Assembly: GCA_022496205.1 (NCBI GenBank)
Contig: WTXD01000347.1
Span: forward strand, 1-11,796
Source: Gloeopeniophorella convolvens
Taxonomy: Eukaryota > Basidiomycota > Agaricomycetes > Russulales
Reading direction: 5' to 3'
Length of the DNA stretch: 11,796 bases
Shown here in pieces: positions 810 to 11,796 of the stretch. A program made the position numbers and the translations under genes. The notes beneath the pieces were generated by a model. The model had not been told where the DNA came from, did no database searches, and worked only from the letters and a program-made list of their open reading frames with translations. Positions within the stretch are counted from its first letter, which is position 1; the number at the start of each line of letters is the position of its first letter.

Positions 810-1335
810 TCAACGGACCGTGTCATAGTTGTTCAGAGTGACAATATGCGCCTCTTCACTCTCCTGAGCGGTGGGGGCGCGACGGCGAGTGGGCCGTGCC
901 TTTCTCTTGCCCAAGACGACCACTGATGGGGCCTCAACAGGCTCCACAACCTCCCCCTGTTCAGAATTACCTTCAAAGTTGCCCACCTTGAAGCTTTCAG
1001 CGATTGAGCTGCTCACCGATTGAGGGACATCTTGATCGTCGTCTTGGACCTTCTGGGGGGTCTTCTGGGCCTCAGCAACATCGCCCTTGCGCTGTTGAAG
1101 ACGGCCTGAGCGATGCGGCGCTGAGGGGGGCTCCTCAGGCTGCTCAGACTCTGAAATCGAGGTAGAAATGGCTATTAGCGTTCAGAACGCACGGACCGTG
1201 CACCACGCACCTTCAGAGAGCTGCTCCTCCTCTTCATCCTCCTCCTCCTCATTCTCCTCACCCTCTGGCTCCCCATCTCCCTCCCCATTGTTGTCCTCCT
1301 CCAGCATCCACCACTCAGGGTGGGATGGGTCTTGA
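810..1335 (-). CDS. C-terminal fragment of an acidic disordered protein, unrecognised
   Basis: Read on the minus strand, coding sequence leaves repeat copy A at about 1335. It begins with DPSHPEWWMLEEDN, then runs through a long Glu/Asp tract (about 1290-1215, mostly GAG/GAA codons). A 60-nt intron follows at 1210-1151, with donor GTGCGT, acceptor TTTCAG and a GCTAAT branch-like site. The second exon (1150-810) is rich in Glu, Gln, Pro and Ser, has a basic patch GKRKARPTRRRAP near the end, and stops with TGA at 810-812. The palindromic motif lies inside the intron and again in the last codons (D-T-V-R-stop). The N-terminus is missing: the frame breaks where the repeat begins. Composition suggests a nuclear, chromatin-associated or transposon-borne protein, but I recognise no domain. 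Whether it is expressed is unknown; it may be a remnant. Confidence 0.5.
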
Positions 1336-2411
1336 TCACATATGGACCAAGACCTGCTATATCACTTGTGGAACGGCCCGACCGCAGAATCTCCATATGA
1401 CTCATGGCCAGCCGACGTCGGCCGACCGGACCGTTTTCACCTATCAGTCATAGCGTCGGCCGACCGTATACCAAAACGGACCGTGCAAGCGTCGCTTTGA
1501 ATGAAGGAATGATTGGAAAAACATAAAATGAAGTATCTAAGAACTGTTCAGAGAATGTTTGAGTAGTATCCAAGGAGTATCCAAGTATTCATTGAGTGAT
1601 AAACACATAAGTACTTCAGTATAGTGAGTAGATACATTAGATGATTCCAAGGACCCCCACTATACACATAACTCAGGTGGTGAGTGGTAACTCAAGATGA
1701 ATGAGTGTTACCATGTTACATTACAGACTATGTAGTGTACTCTGAGTGCATACAAGGCAGAAACATGGACCGTACGAGTGCTATAGAATGGACCGTGCAA
1801 GGGCCCTATAAACAAATCATATAAAATCTGTATACATAGTTCAGTTACTCTACATGTGCACGGTCCGTGTATGGAACGGTCCGTGTATGGAATGGTCCAT
1901 GTATGGAACGGTCTGTGCACAAAACGGTCCGTGTTTAGAATGATTAATGAACAGATTAGATCATGTTAGAGGATAGACTATGCACAGATCAGACTGTGCA
2001 GGCAGTATAGGTAATATCTGTGTGAACTACTCATCTATAACCTGTTGTGCTAGGTATACAGAGTAGACATGACTGCATCAATCAAGCTGTTGTAATGGCT
2101 ATACTCAGATGGCTTTGATTATCCAGGTCTCAAGCATCATAAGACATATCTTTATCTACAAGTAAGATATGCTCTCAAACTGAGAATACACTCTGCAAAG
2201 TCCTTCAATATGAGAAGGAGCCAGAGATAAAGCATATACATTTGGGAGTGCAATATACACTACAAGAATATTAGACTAGTTGTGAAGACCAATATACAAT
2301 GGAGTATAGTAAGTGTATTAGATGCACAGGACTAAATATATCAAGTGACTGCAAGGTTGTCCACCACACACATAATGCAAGCACTATAGAATAGATCATG
2401 AAGGGATAACA
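1336..2411. repeat. Direct repeat copy A (about 1.1 kb)
   Basis: Aligns nearly end to end with 8439-9608 in the same orientation, with scattered substitutions and small indels. The left edge is sharp: both copies begin TCACATATGGACCAAGACC, while the sequences before that differ. In order it holds a GC-rich palindrome-dense block (1411-1490), an AT-rich body with no CpG (1497-1769 and 1932 onward), a unit with two motif copies (about 1658-1800) and a tandem motif array (1859-1933). Relative to copy B it has lost about 95 nt near 2373. No transposase, reverse transcriptase or clear terminal inverted repeats are visible. It could be a non-autonomous transposon or a segmental duplicate. Confidence 0.85.
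1859..1933. repeat. Tandem array of the palindromic motif, 16-17 nt period
   Basis: Five units in a row carry ACGGTCCGTG or a decayed form, separated by TATGGA-like spacers. Three are exact (1860, 1876, 1924). Two are altered by C-to-T or G-to-A changes within CpG (ATGGTCCATG near 1893, ACGGTCTGTG near 1909). The matching array in copy B has different intact and altered units. Confidence 0.85.
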
Positions 2412-2671
2412 ATCAGACCATGTATAATCAGAACTGATTGGATTAGATTATGTGAGTTAAATGAATTAAATTGATCATATGACATGGACTGTGTGAAACG
2501 GACCGTGTGAAACGGACCGTGCGACAGGGACCTTGCAAACCGGACCGTGTGAACAGCACATGATAAGTCTAGGCCTTCTCTTCAATTGTTGGGGCCAGAA
2601 AACATATTGGGGTATCAGAGCGCCCTACCACTCTCTATCACTTCATCCACATCATCATCACACACAATACC
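2412..2671 (+). promoter_or_regulatory. Upstream region of the first paralogue with three motif copies
   Basis: This holds no gene. It has two exact motif copies 14 nt apart (2498-2506, 2512-2520) and a near copy at 2541. A pyrimidine/CA-rich leader (about 2630-2670) ends directly at the ATG at 2672. A similar leader precedes the ATG of the second paralogue at 4164, which supports both start choices. A promoter role for the motif is inference; it is equally common away from gene starts. Confidence 0.35.
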
Positions 2672-3683
2672 ATGCCAACCCTAGCTGAACTCTCCACATT
2701 CTCTGCTCTCCCTCAAGGACAGCAGACAATCCTTAGAATCGCTGCCAGGATCAATGAGGTCCTCAGAAGATGTCATCAGCAAGGTGTAGAGCCAAGCCCA
2801 GCAGTCTTGTGGCATATTGAGGATGCACTGGTAAGTTGTCATTTCAATACCTTGATCAATGATGTTCTTACTAGTGATTCATGATAGGATACTGCCCTAG
2901 AGCTGGGAATGGATAATCCCATCCTCTGGCCACACCCTGTCATCACTGAGGTGGCCACAGTGATCTATGGCAAAAGTACACCAAGGCTAGGTGATGTCAA
3001 CCTTCGAAGGATTGCTATAGACTGTGTGGCCAATGAGTGTAAGGGTGTGTCAGCCACCACTGAGCTCGAGAGATTTCTGGATGCTGGGAACACAAGGCCA
3101 GACAGTCCCAAGTGGTAGAGGCCTGACTTTGAGTCTGGTGACATTGAGCAAGATCAAGAGATGCAGAGGTGAGTTTATAACTTTACAACTGAGAGAGCAT
3201 AATAGACTGAGTGGGTGTCATAGTCCAGATATTTCAGTGTCTTCCATGGATTATATCCTCAATCAAACTGCCTCTGAGGATGGGGAGATTGAGGAGATCC
3301 CCATGGAAGAATATGACACAGTGAGTGATCTCTATGTGTTCTATTTACATATTGAACGGTCCGTGTTGCAGAGAAGATGTGGGCAATGCAATCTTAATGA
3401 TAGGCACTGTGAGATTCAAGATCAAGTGCAATCAGATGGAGCCTATGAATGCACACACTGTGCAGAGCATGGGATCAGGTGCTGGCCACCTGCTGGGTAG
3501 GCCCTACCACTTCTGTATGCCATGAGAGATCGTCAAATGAGCTCCAGAGGATGTGATATTGTCAGTGAGTGAATTGTACTATTTATTGTGGTTAAACGAG
3601 GCTAACAAAGCAATATAGCACGCAAGGACATAATAAAGCAGATTGAGGGACTGATATATCGTTTGGGGGGTGGCAGTAAGTGA
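2672..3683 (+). pseudogene. Paired-cysteine protein, paralogue 1: five exons, two in-frame TAG codons
   Basis: Exons at 2672-2830, 2888-3168, 3224-3320, 3372-3564 and 3619-3683 join into 795 nt, one unbroken phase of 264 codons plus TGA. Introns are 51-57 nt with GTAAGT, GTGAGT, GTGAGT and GTGAGT donors. The frame is interrupted only by TAG at 3116-3118 and 3498-3500; at both places paralogue 2 has TGG. The N-terminus (QQTILRIAARINEVLRR) looks helical. A conserved middle starts with HPVITEVATVIYG. A cysteine module CxxC-x6-C ... YECTHCAEHGIRCWPP follows, then a lysine-containing helix (RKDIIKQIEG). The CxxC pairs suggest zinc binding, loosely like half a fungal zinc cluster, but the family is not one I can name. 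The 51-nt third intron has no stop and could be retained; the paralogue's matching junction (RRCGQCN/DRCGPCN) supports splicing. It also carries the motif. The gene may be a pseudogene, a truncated gene of 76 codons of exon 2, or one with recoded TAG. Confidence 0.6.
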
Positions 3684-4163
3684 AGGATTAGAGTTATTGG
3701 ATGTAGAAATGGGCTGTGTGAGCACGGGCCGTGTATGCACGCTTTTACTCTGCATTCCATGTATTTTACTTCTGTAGAGCACAAATACTGTTAGATAGAA
3801 AGTGTAGGAGAACTCTGCACGGGCCGTGTCAAGAACGGGCTGTTCAAGCGCCCAGATTGCATCTACATCGAATCTTTAGATACACATTAGCATGTGGAGC
3901 TGCCTAATCTGTAAAATCAATAAAGGATCTGATCTGATCTCGATCAAATCACATTTATTCCAAATTGAGTCAATGACATCACTGAGTGCTAGATATGGAT
4001 CGTCTGGCCGGGCCGTTCTAGACACGGACCGTTCCAGACACGGACCGTGCATGCATCCCGCACGGGCCGTGTTTGGGGCTCAATCAGCGTCACAAGTCAT
4101 CCAAAGTGTCCCAAATCCCCCTCACACTTTCCACACACTATATCACTCATCCCCATCGCTTCA
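3684..4163. other. Intergenic region between the paralogues, rich in the palindromic motif
   Basis: No coding signal. It contains exact motif copies at 3724, 3819, 4024, 4040 and 4062, near copies at 4008 and 3834, and the leader of paralogue 2. Three of the five exact copies have a G centre (ACGGGCCGT), a form that is rare elsewhere in the window. The cluster at 4008-4070 lies about 100 nt upstream of the ATG at 4164. Confidence 0.6.
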
Positions 4164-5507
4164 ATGTCTGACCTTCGTGTAGAGTACCTCAAATACACTG
4201 ATGAGCAGCAGGATATGCTACAGATTGCCTGTAGGATCATTGAGGCTGTCAGAGCAAGAGATCAGGGCAGTGCAATCCCTGACAAGGACTTCAAAAGGCA
4301 TCTGAAGCGAGAGGTGGTGAGTCTTTAGTATCACTATTTACTTTCAAGTCTCTCACTGCAGAATCTGTAGGACACTGCCATCATGATGCAGAAGAGATCT
4401 TTGGAGCACCTCTCTGTCCACCCAGCCATCAAGCTTGCTTCCAGCCTGTGGCAAGGCGAGACTGTGACCCCCCTGGATGAGCTCACCATGGAGAGTATCA
4501 CCAAAGCCTGTCAGAAGTCCAAGAGGGAGGGTGTCTTGTCCAGCACTGATCTGGAGGAGGTGATCATTGAGGATGGGGAGTTGGATAGGTGGTGGCTACC
4601 ACCAGCAGCTGAGGAGATGGAGGTGGATGAACCAGGTACGCCTCAGTATCCCTATCTTGTTTGTACATCTCTGACACATTCTCTGGGCTTGTAGAACCCC
4701 CTGCAAAGCGCAGACGACCCGTGCGCTGCCAAAACGGGCCGTGCTGCAGGTCAACACTGAGGGAGCGACTCAGGGTGCTGCTGAGCAGGAGGAAGGGTGA
4801 GTACAGTTAAGGTCCACCTAGAAATGCACTGATTAACTTGTTATTCACCCACAGAACTCCCCAACGCCTCAGAACACCTACATCACAGAGGAGGGCACTG
4901 TGAACATGATCAAAAAGGACTACAAGAAGGTAAGTCAATTCTACTGCTCATATTTGATGATCTGATGCGATCTGCACGGTCCGTGCCATAGGATCGGTGC
5001 GGTCCGTGCAACTATGCAAGCTGGAGTGCACAATGCCAGTCCAGATGCCTTTGAGACCCGAAATTACGAGTGTATCAGGTGTGAGAGGCTGGGGATTCGC
5101 TGCTGGCCCCCTGCAAGATGGGCTCTGCCTCTGCTGTTCAGGCCAGAGACACATCTCAGGTCTAACAAGAGCACTACCAACTTTGTAGTGAGTACAATCA
5201 TTCTACATCATTGTGACAGTTCTAATGTATAATATATCATAGCTGCACGCGATTTGCAGAAGCAGATCAAAAGCTGACTGAAGTGCTCAAGGATGGCACT
5301 GCAGGCAGGCCAGATCGGCCCATTCCATCTCCCTCTGTTTCCCTTCGTCCCATTCACTCTGCAGTTCCCTCCCCCATCCTGTTCTCTAGCCACAACCTTG
5401 CAGAGGGTGTGGCTGGACCATCTCGTCTCCCAGCAGGCAGTAGCACGGTCCGTACCACAGGCGCCCCAGTCAAGCGTGTTTCCAGCACGAGTCGTGGCAG
5501 GAAGTGA
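4164..5507 (+). pseudogene. Paired-cysteine protein, paralogue 2 (frame-damaged or mis-assembled)
   Basis: Same architecture as the gene at 2672. The start ATG at 4164 has a similar leader. Exon 1 (4164-4316) encodes EQQDMLQIACRIIEAVR. An intron at 4317-4370 lies at the same position and phase as in paralogue 1. Exon 2 (4371-4635) begins DTA and contains HPAIKLASSLWQ and DRWWLPP. Likely introns follow at 4636-4694, 4797-4854, 4930-4991 and 5188-5242. Exon 5 encodes DRCGPCN, then YECIRCERLGIRCWPPAR, but these two pieces are in different phases, so a frameshift lies at about 5010-5060. Another mismatch of phase occurs between 4695 and 4855, where an extra exon has no partner in paralogue 1. The tail is a Lys/Glu helix (DQKLTEVLKDG) and a Pro/Ser-rich end stopping at 5507. 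Motif copies lie in an intron (4976) and in exons (4734, 4999, 5445). Function is unknown; the CxxC pairs suggest metal binding. Confidence 0.55.
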
Positions 5508-5863
5508 GTGGGGCCCTGTTTGAATTGTTGTACAATGTATCTTGCATGCATGAATGGAATATCGAGTATTTCACTTGTTTGAATTGAATGTGTGATAAGA
5601 GTAGGTATTTATATGATTGAATGTGCACGAACACGGACCGTTCATTGAGAAGCACACAAGGCAAGGTGTATACATCAATACACACTTTATTATCTTCTTG
5701 AGTGTCTGAATAAGCTTCGAATGAGTCATCGCACGGACCGTGTTACACGGTCCGTGCAACAGGACCGTGTTCAAGGCGAAGTAGCTCATTGTGCTATTCA
5801 CTATCCACAGAAAACAATAAACATGATATACTATAACTAAACACTTCTATGCTATGCCCAGGA
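5508..5863. other. Convergent intergenic region with four motif copies
   Basis: Lies between the 3' ends of paralogue 2 (+) and the KDZ gene (-). No gene is seen. It holds exact motif copies at 5633, 5733 and 5747 and a near copy at 5761. The 5733 and 5747 pair is one A-centred and one T-centred copy 14 nt apart, a nearly perfect larger inverted repeat (about 5732-5756). TTTATT at 5686-5691 reads AATAAA on the minus strand and could be a KDZ poly(A) signal. Confidence 0.55.
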
Positions 5864-8438
5864 CTAGATGGCTGGTACAGACATGTAAGTGAATGTAGAC
5901 TTGTCCACCAGTGGTTCAGACTCCCTAATAAACTTCAATGCTTCATCAGCACTCTGGGCAAGCTGAATCCACATGTGCCTCTGCTTTGCAGCATAGGCAT
6001 AGTGTCCTGGACTCGTCAATTGCACGGTCCGATCCATGCGCTCCATCCAGAAGTCTGCTCGATTTCTGAAGTAGGCTGGCACCCAATGAGCTTCATTCTT
6101 GATGGTGCACTCCTCCTCCATCCACCGCTCAAGCTGAGCCTTGGCTCTGAGCCAGTGAACCCGTTGTACTAAACATATACATACTATTAGTAAGTCACAG
6201 AGGTAACAGAATCAACAGAACCACTCACATTCAGCAAACCAATGAGGTCCATTATTCTCCTGGATCCCAAATGTCCAGATCCAGGGGAGTTGTTCATTCC
6301 GTTGTCCTCGTTCATTTGAGCCTAGAACAAGGGTCTGCACCTTCATATCTGCCTTGGTCAGCACTGGGAGTGATTCTTGACTTGGGAGTGCATCTTCAAG
6401 GACATCAAACATGTCCCTTGCCAGACTGTACACTCTGGCATGCTCTTGAACACCAGCATCAACACCATGCACACTGCTCCATGCACTCTTCTTGTCTTCT
6501 GGCTCTTGGCAGTCCTGACCCTTGTTCTGATCAGTGAAGACTTGAATCCAAGGGCAAGTCGGATCTTGTGGATTGCATCATGAGCTTGAGCAACCCTCAG
6601 CTTTGCTTCTTTGACAGCAAGTGACTTGGCACCATGATGGAGGCACCAAGTCCATCCTAGAGTCGAGGGGAGCATGATGTTAACATCTTCAGGGAACACA
6701 GATGCAGAGCCATCATCTCCATCTCTGACACCTTCATTCTCCACGTCTTCATCATCAGAACGGTCCGATTCATTGATCTGATCTTCATCCACTTGATCAG
6801 CTCTATCAAACTCATGGTAAGACTTGATTTTCTGGATTGATGAGATAGCAACACTGGTGTGTCTGAGCAAGTAGGAATCAGCCTCATGCTGGAACTTGTT
6901 GATGAGGGATTGTAGGTTGCTTCGACGATCATCAAGTGTCTTCTTATCAGCTGTGTTGAATCTTCCCTTCTTTGCACGAATGAACCTTCTAATTCCAAGT
7001 CTAGAGGGGTAAAATCAGCAATTGCACGGTCCGTGCAAAGACATGGACCATACTGAGTCTCCTGAATAGTGAGTCCAGATGAGATCCATTGGGCCTCGCC
7101 ATTGGATGAGTCCCAGGCTTTCTCCTGTTTACTGAGCTCAGTTTGAACTTCTGAGCGAGTGGGGGCTAGTGCTCAAAGTATCAGAGAAGTCATATTGAGC
7201 ACAAACAAGTATGTTCACCTTTCTTAGTCTTTGTCTCATAGATATCCATTGCCTCTGGATTCTCCCATCGATGTGACTGTGCATCGGCCTCTTGCAGTGC
7301 CCAGATCCCAATCATTGTAGGGAAGCGTTGACTCAGGCCCACAAAGGCCACCTCACTCAGAGGGAGACCTTCCTGGACACGCTTCCAGCGTTTCAGCATG
7401 AAGGGAACTAGACACCAGTTAACAATGAGTAGGATGAGATTTGAGATTGCACGGACCGGTCTTGATCAATTTCTTCCAGTTAGAATAGTTCATGTGGGCA
7501 TCTAGCACCTCTGCACGATGAACTAGAGACATCCCTCTAGTACTCCGAGATATGTTGTTCAATATTGACCACAGAGTCTCAATGATCTCTCCATCTACTG
7601 TCTGGTAGCATGAGTGTAGCTGGGTGAGAATCGAGCAAGACAGGTGTCTTGGTGGCCATGAATGTGAAAGAGACCAATCACATAACGAAGCTTGAGAGCC
7701 TCAGGGATGGACAACAAGGCATTCTCATCAATCCTCTTGAGTAGATTGACACAATACTGGCACATGATGTCATATGAGATGACAGCAATGGGGATGCCAT
7801 CCATGTTGTAGTTGAGGGCCTGACAGAGACTGTAGTCCATGTTGGCTTGTCTGATGGTTATAGAGACGTGTAAACGGACCGTTTAGCACGGGCCGTTCTG
7901 ACACGGACCGTGCACGCACCGTTCACCCTTCTGGAAGTCAACAACCGATGTAGGCACAAAACAACCATGGGCACATGCAGTGGCACCTATCCCAGTGACA
8001 TCGAGATGAGGATGACTAGAGTTGGCCATCTCAATGGCTCTGTAGGTGTTACAGGTGCTTTTCTACAATCACACATTAGAAACCTCAATTGTGGTACTGA
8101 TCAATAACTCACAATCTTCTTATGATTGGCAGTGGATAGATGTTCCTTATATCGAGTTGGTTCAGCCATGAATGAAGTTCCCTCAGAAGAGGGACCTCAT
8201 CATCAGATGTGCGAGCCCTCATGTGCTCTGCAGTGAAGTTGCCATCCATGATGAAAGTCCGAACCAACTCTTCACTAAAGTCACTATTAGCTGTATTATC
8301 ACTGAACAACAAGTTAGACTGACGGCTTGTAGATCTCTTGGAAGTTGTCTGGCAGATTGATGCCAGGCTGAGGACATGCTGAACAGAAGATGGCCATGCA
8401 GCCCTCCTCCTCCTTGACTGGCACAGTGTGGCCATACC
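5864..8438 (-). pseudogene. KDZ-family DNA transposase, N-terminally truncated and frameshifted
   Basis: KDZ transposases are large DDE/RNase H-fold enzymes of eukaryotic cut-and-paste elements. Recognisable blocks in order: CSACPQPGINLP (about 8385-8350), FIMDGNF (about 8256-8236), EGTSFMAEPTRYKEHL and KSTCNTYRAIEMAN across the 8112-8063 intron, CAHGCFVPTSVVDFQKGER, QANMDYSLCQALNY (from 7850), YDIMCQYCVNLL (about 7774), GLFHIHGHQDTC (about 7666), VDGEIIETLWSILN (about 7598), then the long helical tail ending in AYAAKQRHMW and the stop at 5864-5866. Family knowledge suggests the D of MDGNF, the D of YDIMCQ and the E of DGE as acidic catalytic residues. Introns lie at 8112-8063, 7919-7851, 7456-7408, 7218-7166, 7053-7001 and 6228-6169. 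Single-base frameshifts fall near 8320, 8185, 7605 and 6485. The N-terminal few hundred residues, with the cysteine cluster typical of this family, are absent: repeat copy B starts at 8439. Activity is therefore unlikely. The family call is near certain; inactivation assumes the assembly is correct. Confidence 0.92.
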
Positions 8439-9608
8439 TCACATATGGACCAAGACCGGCTATATCACTTATGGAACGGCCCGACCGAGAATCTACATAT
8501 GACTCATGGCCAGCCGACGTCGGCTGACCGGACCGTTTCTGCACATGGCTCATGGGTCGGCCGACCGTCGGCCAAAACGGACCGTGCAAACATCGTTTTG
8601 AGTGCAGCCATGACTAGGAAAACATAAAATGAAGTATTGAGGAGTACCCAAGTAGTATCCAAGTACTCATTGAGTGATAAACACATAAGTACTTCAGTAT
8701 AGTGAGTAGATACATCAGATGATTCCAAGGCCCCCACTATACACATAACTCAGGTGGTGAGTGGTAACTCAAGATGAATGAGTGTTACCATGTTACATTA
8801 CATACTATGTAGTGTACTCTGAGTGCATACAAGGCAGAAACACGGACCGTGCGAGTGCTATTGAACGGACCGTGCAAGGCCCTATAAACAAATCATTAAA
8901 ATCTGTATATATAGTTCAGTTACACTACATGTGCACGTCCTGCAAACGGTCCGGTATGGAACGGTCCGTGCATGGACGGTGCGGCCATGGACGGTTCGGC
9001 ATGGAACGGTCCGTCTAGAGAACGGTCCGTGTTTACAATGATTAATGAACAGATTAGATCATGTTAGAGAATAGACTATGCACAGATCAGACTGTGCAGG
9101 CAGTGTAGGTAATATCTGTGTGAACTACTCATCTATAACCTGTTGTGCTAGGTATACAGAGTAGACAGGATTGCATCAATCAAGCTGTTGTAATGGCTAT
9201 ACTCAGATGGCTTTGATTATCCAGGTGTCAAGCATCATAACACATATCTTTATCTACAAGTAAGATATGCTCTCAAACTAAGAATACACTCTGCAAAGTC
9301 CTTCAATATGAGAAGGAGCCAGAGATAAAGGATGTCCATTGGGGAGTGTAATATACACTACAAGAATATTAGACTAGTTGTGAAGACTAATATACAATGG
9401 AATATAATAAGTGTACTAGATGCAAAGGACTAGATACATCAAGTGACTGCAAGGTTGTCCACCATACACATAACTCAGATGATGAGTGATAAATTAAGAT
9501 AGGTGAGTGTAACCATAATACACTAGATACTATGTAGTGTACTCTGAATGCATACAATGCAGAAACACGGACCATACAAGCACTTTAGAACAGAACATGC
9601 AAGGAGTA
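8439..9608. repeat. Direct repeat copy B (about 1.17 kb)
   Basis: Second copy of the element at 1336-2411, in the same orientation and with the same sharp left edge (TCACATATGGACC). Internal order is the same: palindrome block 8511-8590, AT-rich body, motif pair at 8842 and 8864, tandem array 8946-9030, then a CpG-free stretch to 9567. It directly abuts the truncated end of the KDZ gene. On the minus strand an open frame runs from about 8589 inside the repeat into the KDZ coding sequence, so the repeat may supply an artificial 5' exon. Copy A likewise abuts a minus-strand coding fragment. The element type is unknown. Confidence 0.85.
8946..9030. repeat. Tandem motif array in copy B
   Basis: Counterpart of 1859-1933, with about six units. 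Exact cores are at 8961, 9006 and 9022, with altered units ACGGTCCGG (8946), ACGGTGCGG and ACGGTTCGG between them, separated by CATGGA-type spacers. The altered units here are not the simple C-to-T decays seen in copy A, so the two arrays have diverged separately. Confidence 0.8.
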
Positions 9609-9704
9609 CTCATATAAGTCATTTAAACTCAATGGATATGGAGTACTTACACTACATCTGCACGGACCGTTTCTGAATCGGACCGTGTATAGAACGGTCC
9701 GTGC
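9462..9704. repeat. Diverged second copy of the inner unit of repeat B
   Basis: The unit at about 8730-9030 recurs here at lower identity: CCACCATACACATAACTCAG, then TACTATGTAGTGTACTCTGA, a CATACAA.GCAGAAACACGGACC block, and a motif cluster at 9662-9702. In this older-looking copy two motif sites are decayed (ACGGACCAT near 9567, and an ACAGAACAT form near 9590). Copy A keeps only a short remnant (about 2361-2411). The inner unit was therefore duplicated before the large A/B duplication, and A later lost most of it. Confidence 0.7.
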
Positions 9705-9797
9705 AAAAACTATAATCATGGCAGTACACCTCAAACACCAACAACCTAGGTACACAATAAATATAAACTACCTAGGCAATGCAGTATAACCTAGAAA

Positions 9798-11796
9798 CTA
9801 TACTCCACCACTCAAGAAGTCATTGGGAACTCTGCCTGCCCCTCGTCCTCTATCAGGATTGCTGCAGGGTAAGGAACAATGTCAGTACCACAAGATAGTG
9901 GATAGAGAGAAGAATGTACCTAGCCTTTTCAGTCAGCATAGTGTTACGCTTTGGATGACTTGTGCTTGTAGAGAGTGCCATGGCAGGCACTGATCCACCA
10001 CCACTACCTCGCTCATGCACCACAGGCTCACCATCATCCTCCTCAATGGCTGCCACATTGGGTCGCCTTTAGACCTACTTGTGGCTGCTGTGATAGATGA
10101 TGGGCCACCACGAGTGTTGGATGAGCCTTCATTGCTTCGATTGGCCATAGATGCACCTGCAACTGTCGAGGCAAATGTCACAGATGCACCTGAGGGTGCA
10201 CCACGAGCTCTGGATGGCAAGGGGGCAAAGGTGCGCGTTGGAACGGGCCGTGCGCGCCTAGAACCTCCACCAGTGGCTATATTGATGTCAGATATGTTTC
10301 ATATGGATAAGAGTGGCCATGCATACTAGGATGGTCAAGATCTGGCTCCAACACATCAGAGGGAGCTGGGGTGATGGTAGGGAGCCTCAGGTTCTTGAGC
10401 ACGAGGAACAGGCCTAGGAATGTTAGAGACACGAGGTGGCTCATCCCTTAGGAGGGGACAGTGCTCTTCCACTCTACAGGTTGAATTCCAGCCTCTTCCT
10501 GCTCATACCAGTAGTCAAGGAGACGCTGAACATCATCCTTGCTCATCTTGGATGGATCTTGTAGCTGGAGATCTGTGGGGAGACTGTCCTCCTGGAGCCA
10601 AGCAAATTGATCTTTCTTAAGGGCACTCCAGCTAATAGCAAGGTTTTTGCGACCTGTGACAAACTCTATAATCATGTTATAGGGAGTAATAAACAAGGTG
10701 AAGGGTGACTCACTGAGATGTAAGGTGAGAAAGTCTCTGACAGCACCCTGAATGACTTTGGCATGATGCTGAGAATAGTCTGCAATCACTGGAACCAGAG
10801 GACATCCTTCTCTATCAAGTTCAATCATGATCGGCTCATGATTGCCTTTCCAGATGCTAGTGGTGCTGGAACATGCATAGCTAGCAGAGATATTAGTGAT
10901 AGAGATATTGAAGACAGATAAACACGGACCGTTTGCAAAGCACCTCTGAGAATATCTCTTCCAGCTATTCCACAGTGGGGCTGTCTCCCAGTCTCTAATC
11001 ATACTCTTGAAGTCGACTCCATTGTCAATATATTTGTTATACTCTTGTCTGATCACCAAATTAGCATTGTGCATAAGGGATAATAGAAGAATATATTTCA
11101 CTCACCCACAAGCTCTGATGGTATTTGTCTCATCTGTCCAGGTGCAGAGGACAAATGTTCTAATACCACAGTATCGATATAGCTGCTCCTGGAAGTCTCT
11201 GATGACTCTTCCTCGCATCTTAAGTGCAAGACTGTGAGATTGCACGGGCCGAACAAGGGGTTAGAACGGTCCGTGCAAAGGGGACAATATGGAAATGACT
11301 GACCGACACTGGATCTCACGAGGTGGGCCTCTGAGAGACCACTCATTGGCTGTTTCCTGAAGCACAGCCATCTCATCTTCTGTCACAGGTCCATGAGCTC
11401 TGTGGTGGTACGCTGCAGGTATCCAAAGTAGACTGGAGTGCCAGGAGGTGCTCCAGAGTTTGTTTAGTGAGATTCATGATCTTGTCACGGTTCTCTTGAT
11501 AGAACACATTTCTGGCAGACCACTTGCGTGTGAAACGCATAAATCTGGCTAGGGCTTTGCGAGATCGGTTGTCAAACCACTTGCGGACTTTCTGAGACAA
11601 TGGTGAGCCAGGGAATGCTAAATGATACACAGAACGGACCGTGCGAGCCTCCCCTTTGTCAAAATCATCCCCCTCATCTCTCAGTGCTGTGAGGTCACCC
11701 AGAACACGATTGACTAGAAGAGCTCTGTCTGGTGCATCGCTGACTCGATATCATCCAGATTCTCATGCAGAATCTCTAGATCGGCCTCAGTCAGCT
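9798..11796 (-). pseudogene. Unrecognised multi-exon gene, 5'-partial, with several frameshifts
   Basis: Enters from the right edge on the minus strand and stops with TAG at 9798-9800. Clear coding blocks in order: LTEADLEILHENLDDIES, ALLVNRVLGDLTALRDEG, YHLAFPGSPLSQKVRKWF, SRKALARFMRFTRKWSARN, EWSLRGPPREIQC, VIRDFQEQLYRYCGIRTF, ETAPLWNSWKRYSQRCF, GNHEPIMIELDREGCPL, LQDPSKMSKDDVQRLLDYWY, then a Pro/Ser-rich low-complexity C-terminus ending GRVPNDFLSGGV. Introns lie at 11303-11232, 11105-11049, 10929-10881 and 9919-9862. The blocks switch phase by one base near 11735, 11410-11460, 10848, 10445 and 10065, so at least five indels separate them. The blocks loosely resemble uncharacterised hypothetical proteins of Agaricomycetes as I recall them, but I can give no name or function. 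Motif copies lie in two introns and two exons. The conserved motifs argue for a real gene once; its present state is probably inactive unless the indels are assembly errors. Confidence 0.6.

Follow-up and report, generated by a model that had tools for sequence, protein, structure and literature searches.

A CGG-N-CCG palindrome tiled through a fungal KDZ transposon: candidate binding sites for the element's own zinc-cluster-like proteins

In the VANC/VANDAL system of Arabidopsis, as covered by the parts of Hosaka 2017 (PMC5735166) and Sasaki 2023 (PMC10398659) used here, a short motif is dense in the non-coding parts, including introns, of one transposon family and not elsewhere in the genome. 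It has spread by tandem repeats that vary between copies, and related VANDAL families have different targets; VANC proteins were shown to bind and to reduce methylation, the motif being 9 bp long and non-palindromic (same sources). For the KDZ elements of Agaricomycetes, the sections of Kojima 2025 (PMC12730594) drawn on here propose a counter-silencing role for transposon-borne TET/JBP genes. They report two Kyakuja families that carry a TET/JBP dioxygenase and lack terminal inverted repeats (TIRs), define Kyakuja by 5'-CA..TG-3' termini, no TIRs and a 7-bp target-site duplication, and describe no dispersed motif. Among KDZ1-3 of Cryptococcus, KDZ1 and KDZ3 are ~10-11 kb long, with TIRs of 139-241 bp and a transposase that contains a zinc-chelating CxC1 domain, and the sections of that description used here mention no dispersed palindrome (PMC12810828). 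We analyzed an 11,796-bp stretch of the Gloeopeniophorella convolvens genome (the window; contig C276 of a 36.68-Mb genome in 404 contigs), in which nested pieces of a roughly 14-kb KDZ DNA transposon, probably with ~1-kb TIRs, carry many copies of a short palindrome, ACGGNCCGT. With a probability of about 60%, these palindromes are dispersed binding sites for the element's own zinc-cluster-like proteins (Z proteins); they may work like VANC/VANDAL.

Between positions 813 and 11642 of the window, ACGGNCCGT occurs exactly 36 times, against a mean of 0.03 in 200 shuffles (largest single shuffle, 1), and 20 further copies in the window have one mismatch. A preliminary description of this DNA had reported about 36 exact copies, far above chance, and none in the first 812 bases. 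Both statements hold, the latter because 1-812 is a long terminal repeat (LTR)-like repeat; what it had not recognized is that all of the window's sites belong to one transposon family. Genome-wide, the palindrome is hardly enriched (755 sites vs. 646 for the reversed control pattern), with no clear excess overall, but 275 of the 755 sites lie within 218,704 bp (15 fetched contig pieces, all of this family). The density there is 96 times that of the other 480 sites in 36.46 Mb, which include any unfetched copies, such as the Z-bearing contigs C399, C224 and the end of C24. Outside the transposon family, ACGGNCCGT is at background. For GCACGGNCCGTGC, 38 of 39 genomic sites are on contigs of the family, the exception lying on C112 in a region with CpG at expectation and one ACGGNCCGT. 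On C1 (L024:4624-5306), where CpG is normal, three ACGGNCCGT copies at intervals of 335 and 339 bp are apparently unrelated to the transposon. The possibility, raised earlier, that every copy goes back to a few long repeats is thus half right: it is a single long repeat whose copies carry the sites, but the ~41 sites inside one element (an estimate combining two copies, with 23 sites in 9.2 kb of C164 and 18 in window 1337-6271) have unrelated flanks.

The conserved unit is 13 bp long, RMACGGNCCGTKY, as a consensus over the 275 sites, many of which are copies of one another. Its core letters are fixed by the selection of sites; around them, position -2 is A or G (R) in 273 of 275, -1 is A or C (M) in 273, +9 is G or T (K) in 270, and +10 is C or T (Y) in 267. 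Beyond -2 to +10 there is no clear signal around these sites, so the earlier statement that only 9-13 bases are conserved, with unrelated flanks, was right. The full 13-mer is matched by 258 of the 275 sites and by 33 of the 36 in the window. Exact sites are ~13 times denser in introns than in exons, and most pairs less than 60 bp apart are spaced by 14 or 16 bp.

Across 42 aligned copy segments of the element, the four non-CpG letters of the core showed 2 substitutions in 1155 cells, compared with 24.3 ± 7.3 in matched columns (CG, TG and CA contexts excluded); none of 5000 draws was as low. Transversions in these letters numbered 0, vs. 9.3 in matched columns (30 of 5000 draws also gave none), and 38 of 39 changes at -2 and +10 were transitions, so that R and Y were kept. 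In the flanks, substitutions number 28 in 280 cells at -4 and 27 in 279 at -3; at the other flank positions from -8 to +16 they range from 3 (+16) to 20. In comparisons with an older internal duplicate, non-CpG letters agree in 18 of the 20 ungapped columns in one case (8 gapped; 73.6% identity overall) and in 12 of 13 in the other (11 gapped; 74.9%). Gains and losses at 38 majority sites are tandem-array changes of 12-32 bp, mostly in 12-16-bp units, apart from three 1-base gaps and one 7-base gap, and an isolated palindrome insertion was never seen at these sites in the 42 segments. The palindrome also contains two CpGs within a CpG-depleted element; this strong depletion says that the element is, or was, a methylation target, and DNA_methylase matches are present in the genome. 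In silent copies, CpGs are lost throughout, inside the palindrome as well as outside it, which is what methylated DNA should show. Read most simply, the palindrome was kept by selection as long as elements were active, and CpG decay came later, in silent copies.

In the piece read of a sister family, RMACGGNCCGTKY is absent. This family carries GACCGGNCCGGTC, with the same CGG-N-CCG core and one base changed per half-site, and its cluster proteins have diverged from the Z proteins of the window family, a comparison of motif and reader that covers one sister family. The window family's element encodes three paralogous Z proteins with C-x2-C-x6-C-x13-C-x2-C-x6-C clusters, a spacing close to that of Gal4-type proteins, which read CGG pairs and whose canonical pattern is C-x2-C-x6-C-x(5-12)-C-x2-C-x6/8-C. 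Pfam scans of the Z pieces listed no match to DUF1985 or DUF287 (VANC), no direct comparison with VANC having been made.

Base-level constraint, family-specific variants and element-encoded proteins with a fitting cysteine pattern therefore support one of the three options in the preliminary description, a binding site for a DNA protein, and not the other two, a micro-element that spreads by itself or a site for a modifying enzyme. In the mechanism that we propose, a small family of zinc-cluster proteins encoded by the transposon would recognize a CGG-N-CCG palindrome that is specific to the family and distributed along the whole element, and this reading would lift silencing from their own element only. 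Sites are tolerated best in non-coding positions and change by tandem units, and families would diverge when the single base next to CGG switches in the motif and the reader switches with it. Both binding by the Z proteins and anti-silencing are what we infer; anti-silencing as the outcome of binding is a tentative suggestion. Equally tentatively, fungal KDZ transposons may have evolved VANC-like self-recognition independently, their families diversifying by a joint base switch in motif and reader.

Several observations weigh against this account. The 13-residue linker of the Z clusters is one over the 5-12 range. PF00172 is matched only below threshold, by eight of nine Z members (best E 0.2; member 1 at 10.6 bits vs. 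a cut-off of 21), hhalign profile comparison with Gal4-type clusters gave probabilities of 6% and 18%, and no PDB relative of the Z clusters was better than E 0.31. Structure models were of low confidence (predicted local distance difference test, pLDDT, 54 and 47), too poor for a fold search, and homology to Gal4-type clusters is not established. In the DNA, +15 (7 substitutions in 288 cells) and +16 (3 in 284) are also quiet, and between the two versions of the terminal repeat the palindrome's non-CpG letters match in 26 of 28 columns, no better than the 92.4% overall. Change is as rapid at core CpGs as at the element's others (0.111 vs. 0.120, gaps included; permutation p 0.26), and therefore no self-protection by the motif is visible in the remaining copies. 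Finally, the sister evidence amounts to fewer than four independent loci because C5 nearly duplicates C372 (98% identity between their Z clusters), and a third Z-like locus, on C297, has only ACCGG-like remnants and no CGGNCCG in the 1.7 kb covered, with the element accounting for perhaps 0.6 kb.

The window contains the following features.

1-812, no strand: LTR-like repeat, palindrome-free; a natural negative control, outside the system
1337-2375, no strand: ~1-kb terminal repeat, outer end CACATATGGACC at 1337, with identity to 8440-9473
2672-3560, plus strand: gene, model approximate
4165-5507, plus strand: gene, model approximate
5909-8274, minus strand: KDZ transposase gene, 8 model exons mapped, PF18758 match
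8440-9473, no strand: terminal repeat belonging to a second copy that inserted into the first, with exact palindromes at 8577, 8842, 8865, 8961, 9006 and 9022
9474-11796, minus strand: body of the second copy with a minus-strand gene; palindromes at 9662, 9694, 10243, 10924, 11266 and 11634

All 812 bases of the LTR-like repeat are matched at 16 other genomic places (93-96%), including three same-strand pairs 4.7-4.9 kb apart; it holds 67 CpGs vs. 63.6 expected and meets a KDZ fragment exactly at palindrome 813. The PF18758 transposase domain (58.3 and 32.3 bits; curated cut-off 26.6) places the element among KDZ transposons. Its short introns have GTRAGT-type donors, and in the transposase gene the intron at 7851-7919 holds palindromes at 7874, 7888 and 7903, and that at 7001-7053 one at 7026. 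Short introns with such donors, taken together with KDZ transposons and copia elements, suggest a basidiomycete. Three open reading frames tried from the second-copy body gave no Pfam match over cut-off. The terminal repeat at 1337-2375 contains exact palindromes at 1476, 1860, 1876 and 1924 (16-bp array) and one-mismatch copies at 1765, 1788 and 1908, and is identical to 8440-9473 in 934 of 1011 aligned columns. A hybrid, GACCGGACCGTTT, lies near the outer end of both terminal repeats (1426 and 8528), with one half-site of the sister type and the other close to the window family's type.

All 16 of the junctions printed show the terminus CACATATGGACC, preceded by 40-bp flanks that differ from one another; this terminus agrees with the CA..TG termini of Kyakuja. 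The opposite end, pieced together from separate copies, appears to be an inverted version of it, giving putative ~1-kb repeats at both ends that are 92% identical in aligned columns. Assignment to Kyakuja, which has no TIRs, was rejected on account of these repeats, and the element is therefore filed only as KDZ. A copia retrotransposon occupies one shared internal site in three copies (L020/L030, C164 3383-8117; C115; C220) that are otherwise ~98% colinear over >10 kb, and a copia-loaded version of the element therefore seems to have multiplied. Elsewhere, ~7 kb with CpG near or above expectation (L006, C6 50-57 kb), probably a younger insertion, splits one element copy in two halves. Near another KDZ gene, 32 of the 33 GCCCAGCC/GGCTGGGC sites of locus L037 fall within 833-1908 in steps of roughly 50 bp; this array is an unrelated minisatellite.

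In Spm, TnpA sites are subterminal and clustered near the ends, and the palindromes might similarly serve transposition rather than anti-silencing, with the transposase or an accessory protein using them in end recognition, synapsis or transposase control. We consider this unlikely: the body (2376-8436) holds 18 exact sites, of which 6 fall within short introns well away from the ends, and ~41 sites over 14 kb should be needless for end recognition. The odds are lower again for binding by a host protein, be it an activator, a repressor or a silencing factor, from which the element profits or under which it suffers. The genome has at least 26 genuine Zn2Cys6 genes, this being the number of PF00172 matches at or above the cut-off among the 45 listed, and CGG-N-CCG suits this class, but a host protein would not account for a motif variant that tracks the element family and its Z genes, and the rest of the genome is at background.

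A DNA-modifying enzyme target, or a by-product of CpG methylation, would fit two CpGs in a CpG-depleted element. No positive evidence for it emerged, however, and it is very improbable, as the palindrome CpGs are kept no better than others while the non-CpG letters are conserved; the genome gave no TET/JBP match either, in a search whose control genomes likewise gave none. The very high local count would suit a self-spreading micro-element, but this reading is largely contradicted, and we give it almost no weight: the 38 majority sites vary by array units or 1- or 7-base gaps only, and neither the nested copia insert of C164 nor 1-812 contains any site.

If the palindromes are indeed read by the Z proteins to counter silencing, sequence-specific transposon anti-silencing, to our knowledge known from one plant lineage only, arose separately in fungi with another protein class. 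The families would then provide a small natural set of word-reader pairs differing by one base per half-site, useful for studying the co-evolution of specificity and for targeting epigenetic marks, and a search rule would be to seek element-wide short palindromes in large multi-gene transposons.

Like TnpA/Spm, the window family combines an element-encoded candidate reader with many short sites in its own element, but these extend over the whole element rather than near its ends. We know of no well-described Gal4-type example of one-base spacing between CGG triplets. With Gal4-type Zn2Cys6 factors, as presented in the part of PMC5559640 used here, the Z proteins share near-identical six-cysteine spacing and CGG-pair site logic; they differ in the 13-residue linker, the one-base spacing between triplets and the lack of significant sequence similarity. 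Cryptococcus KDZ1-3 are likewise KDZ elements with TIRs, of 139-241 bp as against ~1 kb here. Kyakuja shares the KDZ transposase, a terminus starting with CA and a proposed counter-silencing accessory gene, whereas the window element has ~1-kb TIRs and three Z genes. Compared with the plant VANC/VANDAL system, ours is a fungal KDZ element with a 13-bp palindrome and zinc-cluster-like candidate readers. As in VANC/VANDAL, related families have different motifs and diverged readers (in one sister family, C297 being uninformative or against), the targets form tandem repeats that vary between copies, and the motif is concentrated in the non-coding parts of its own family.
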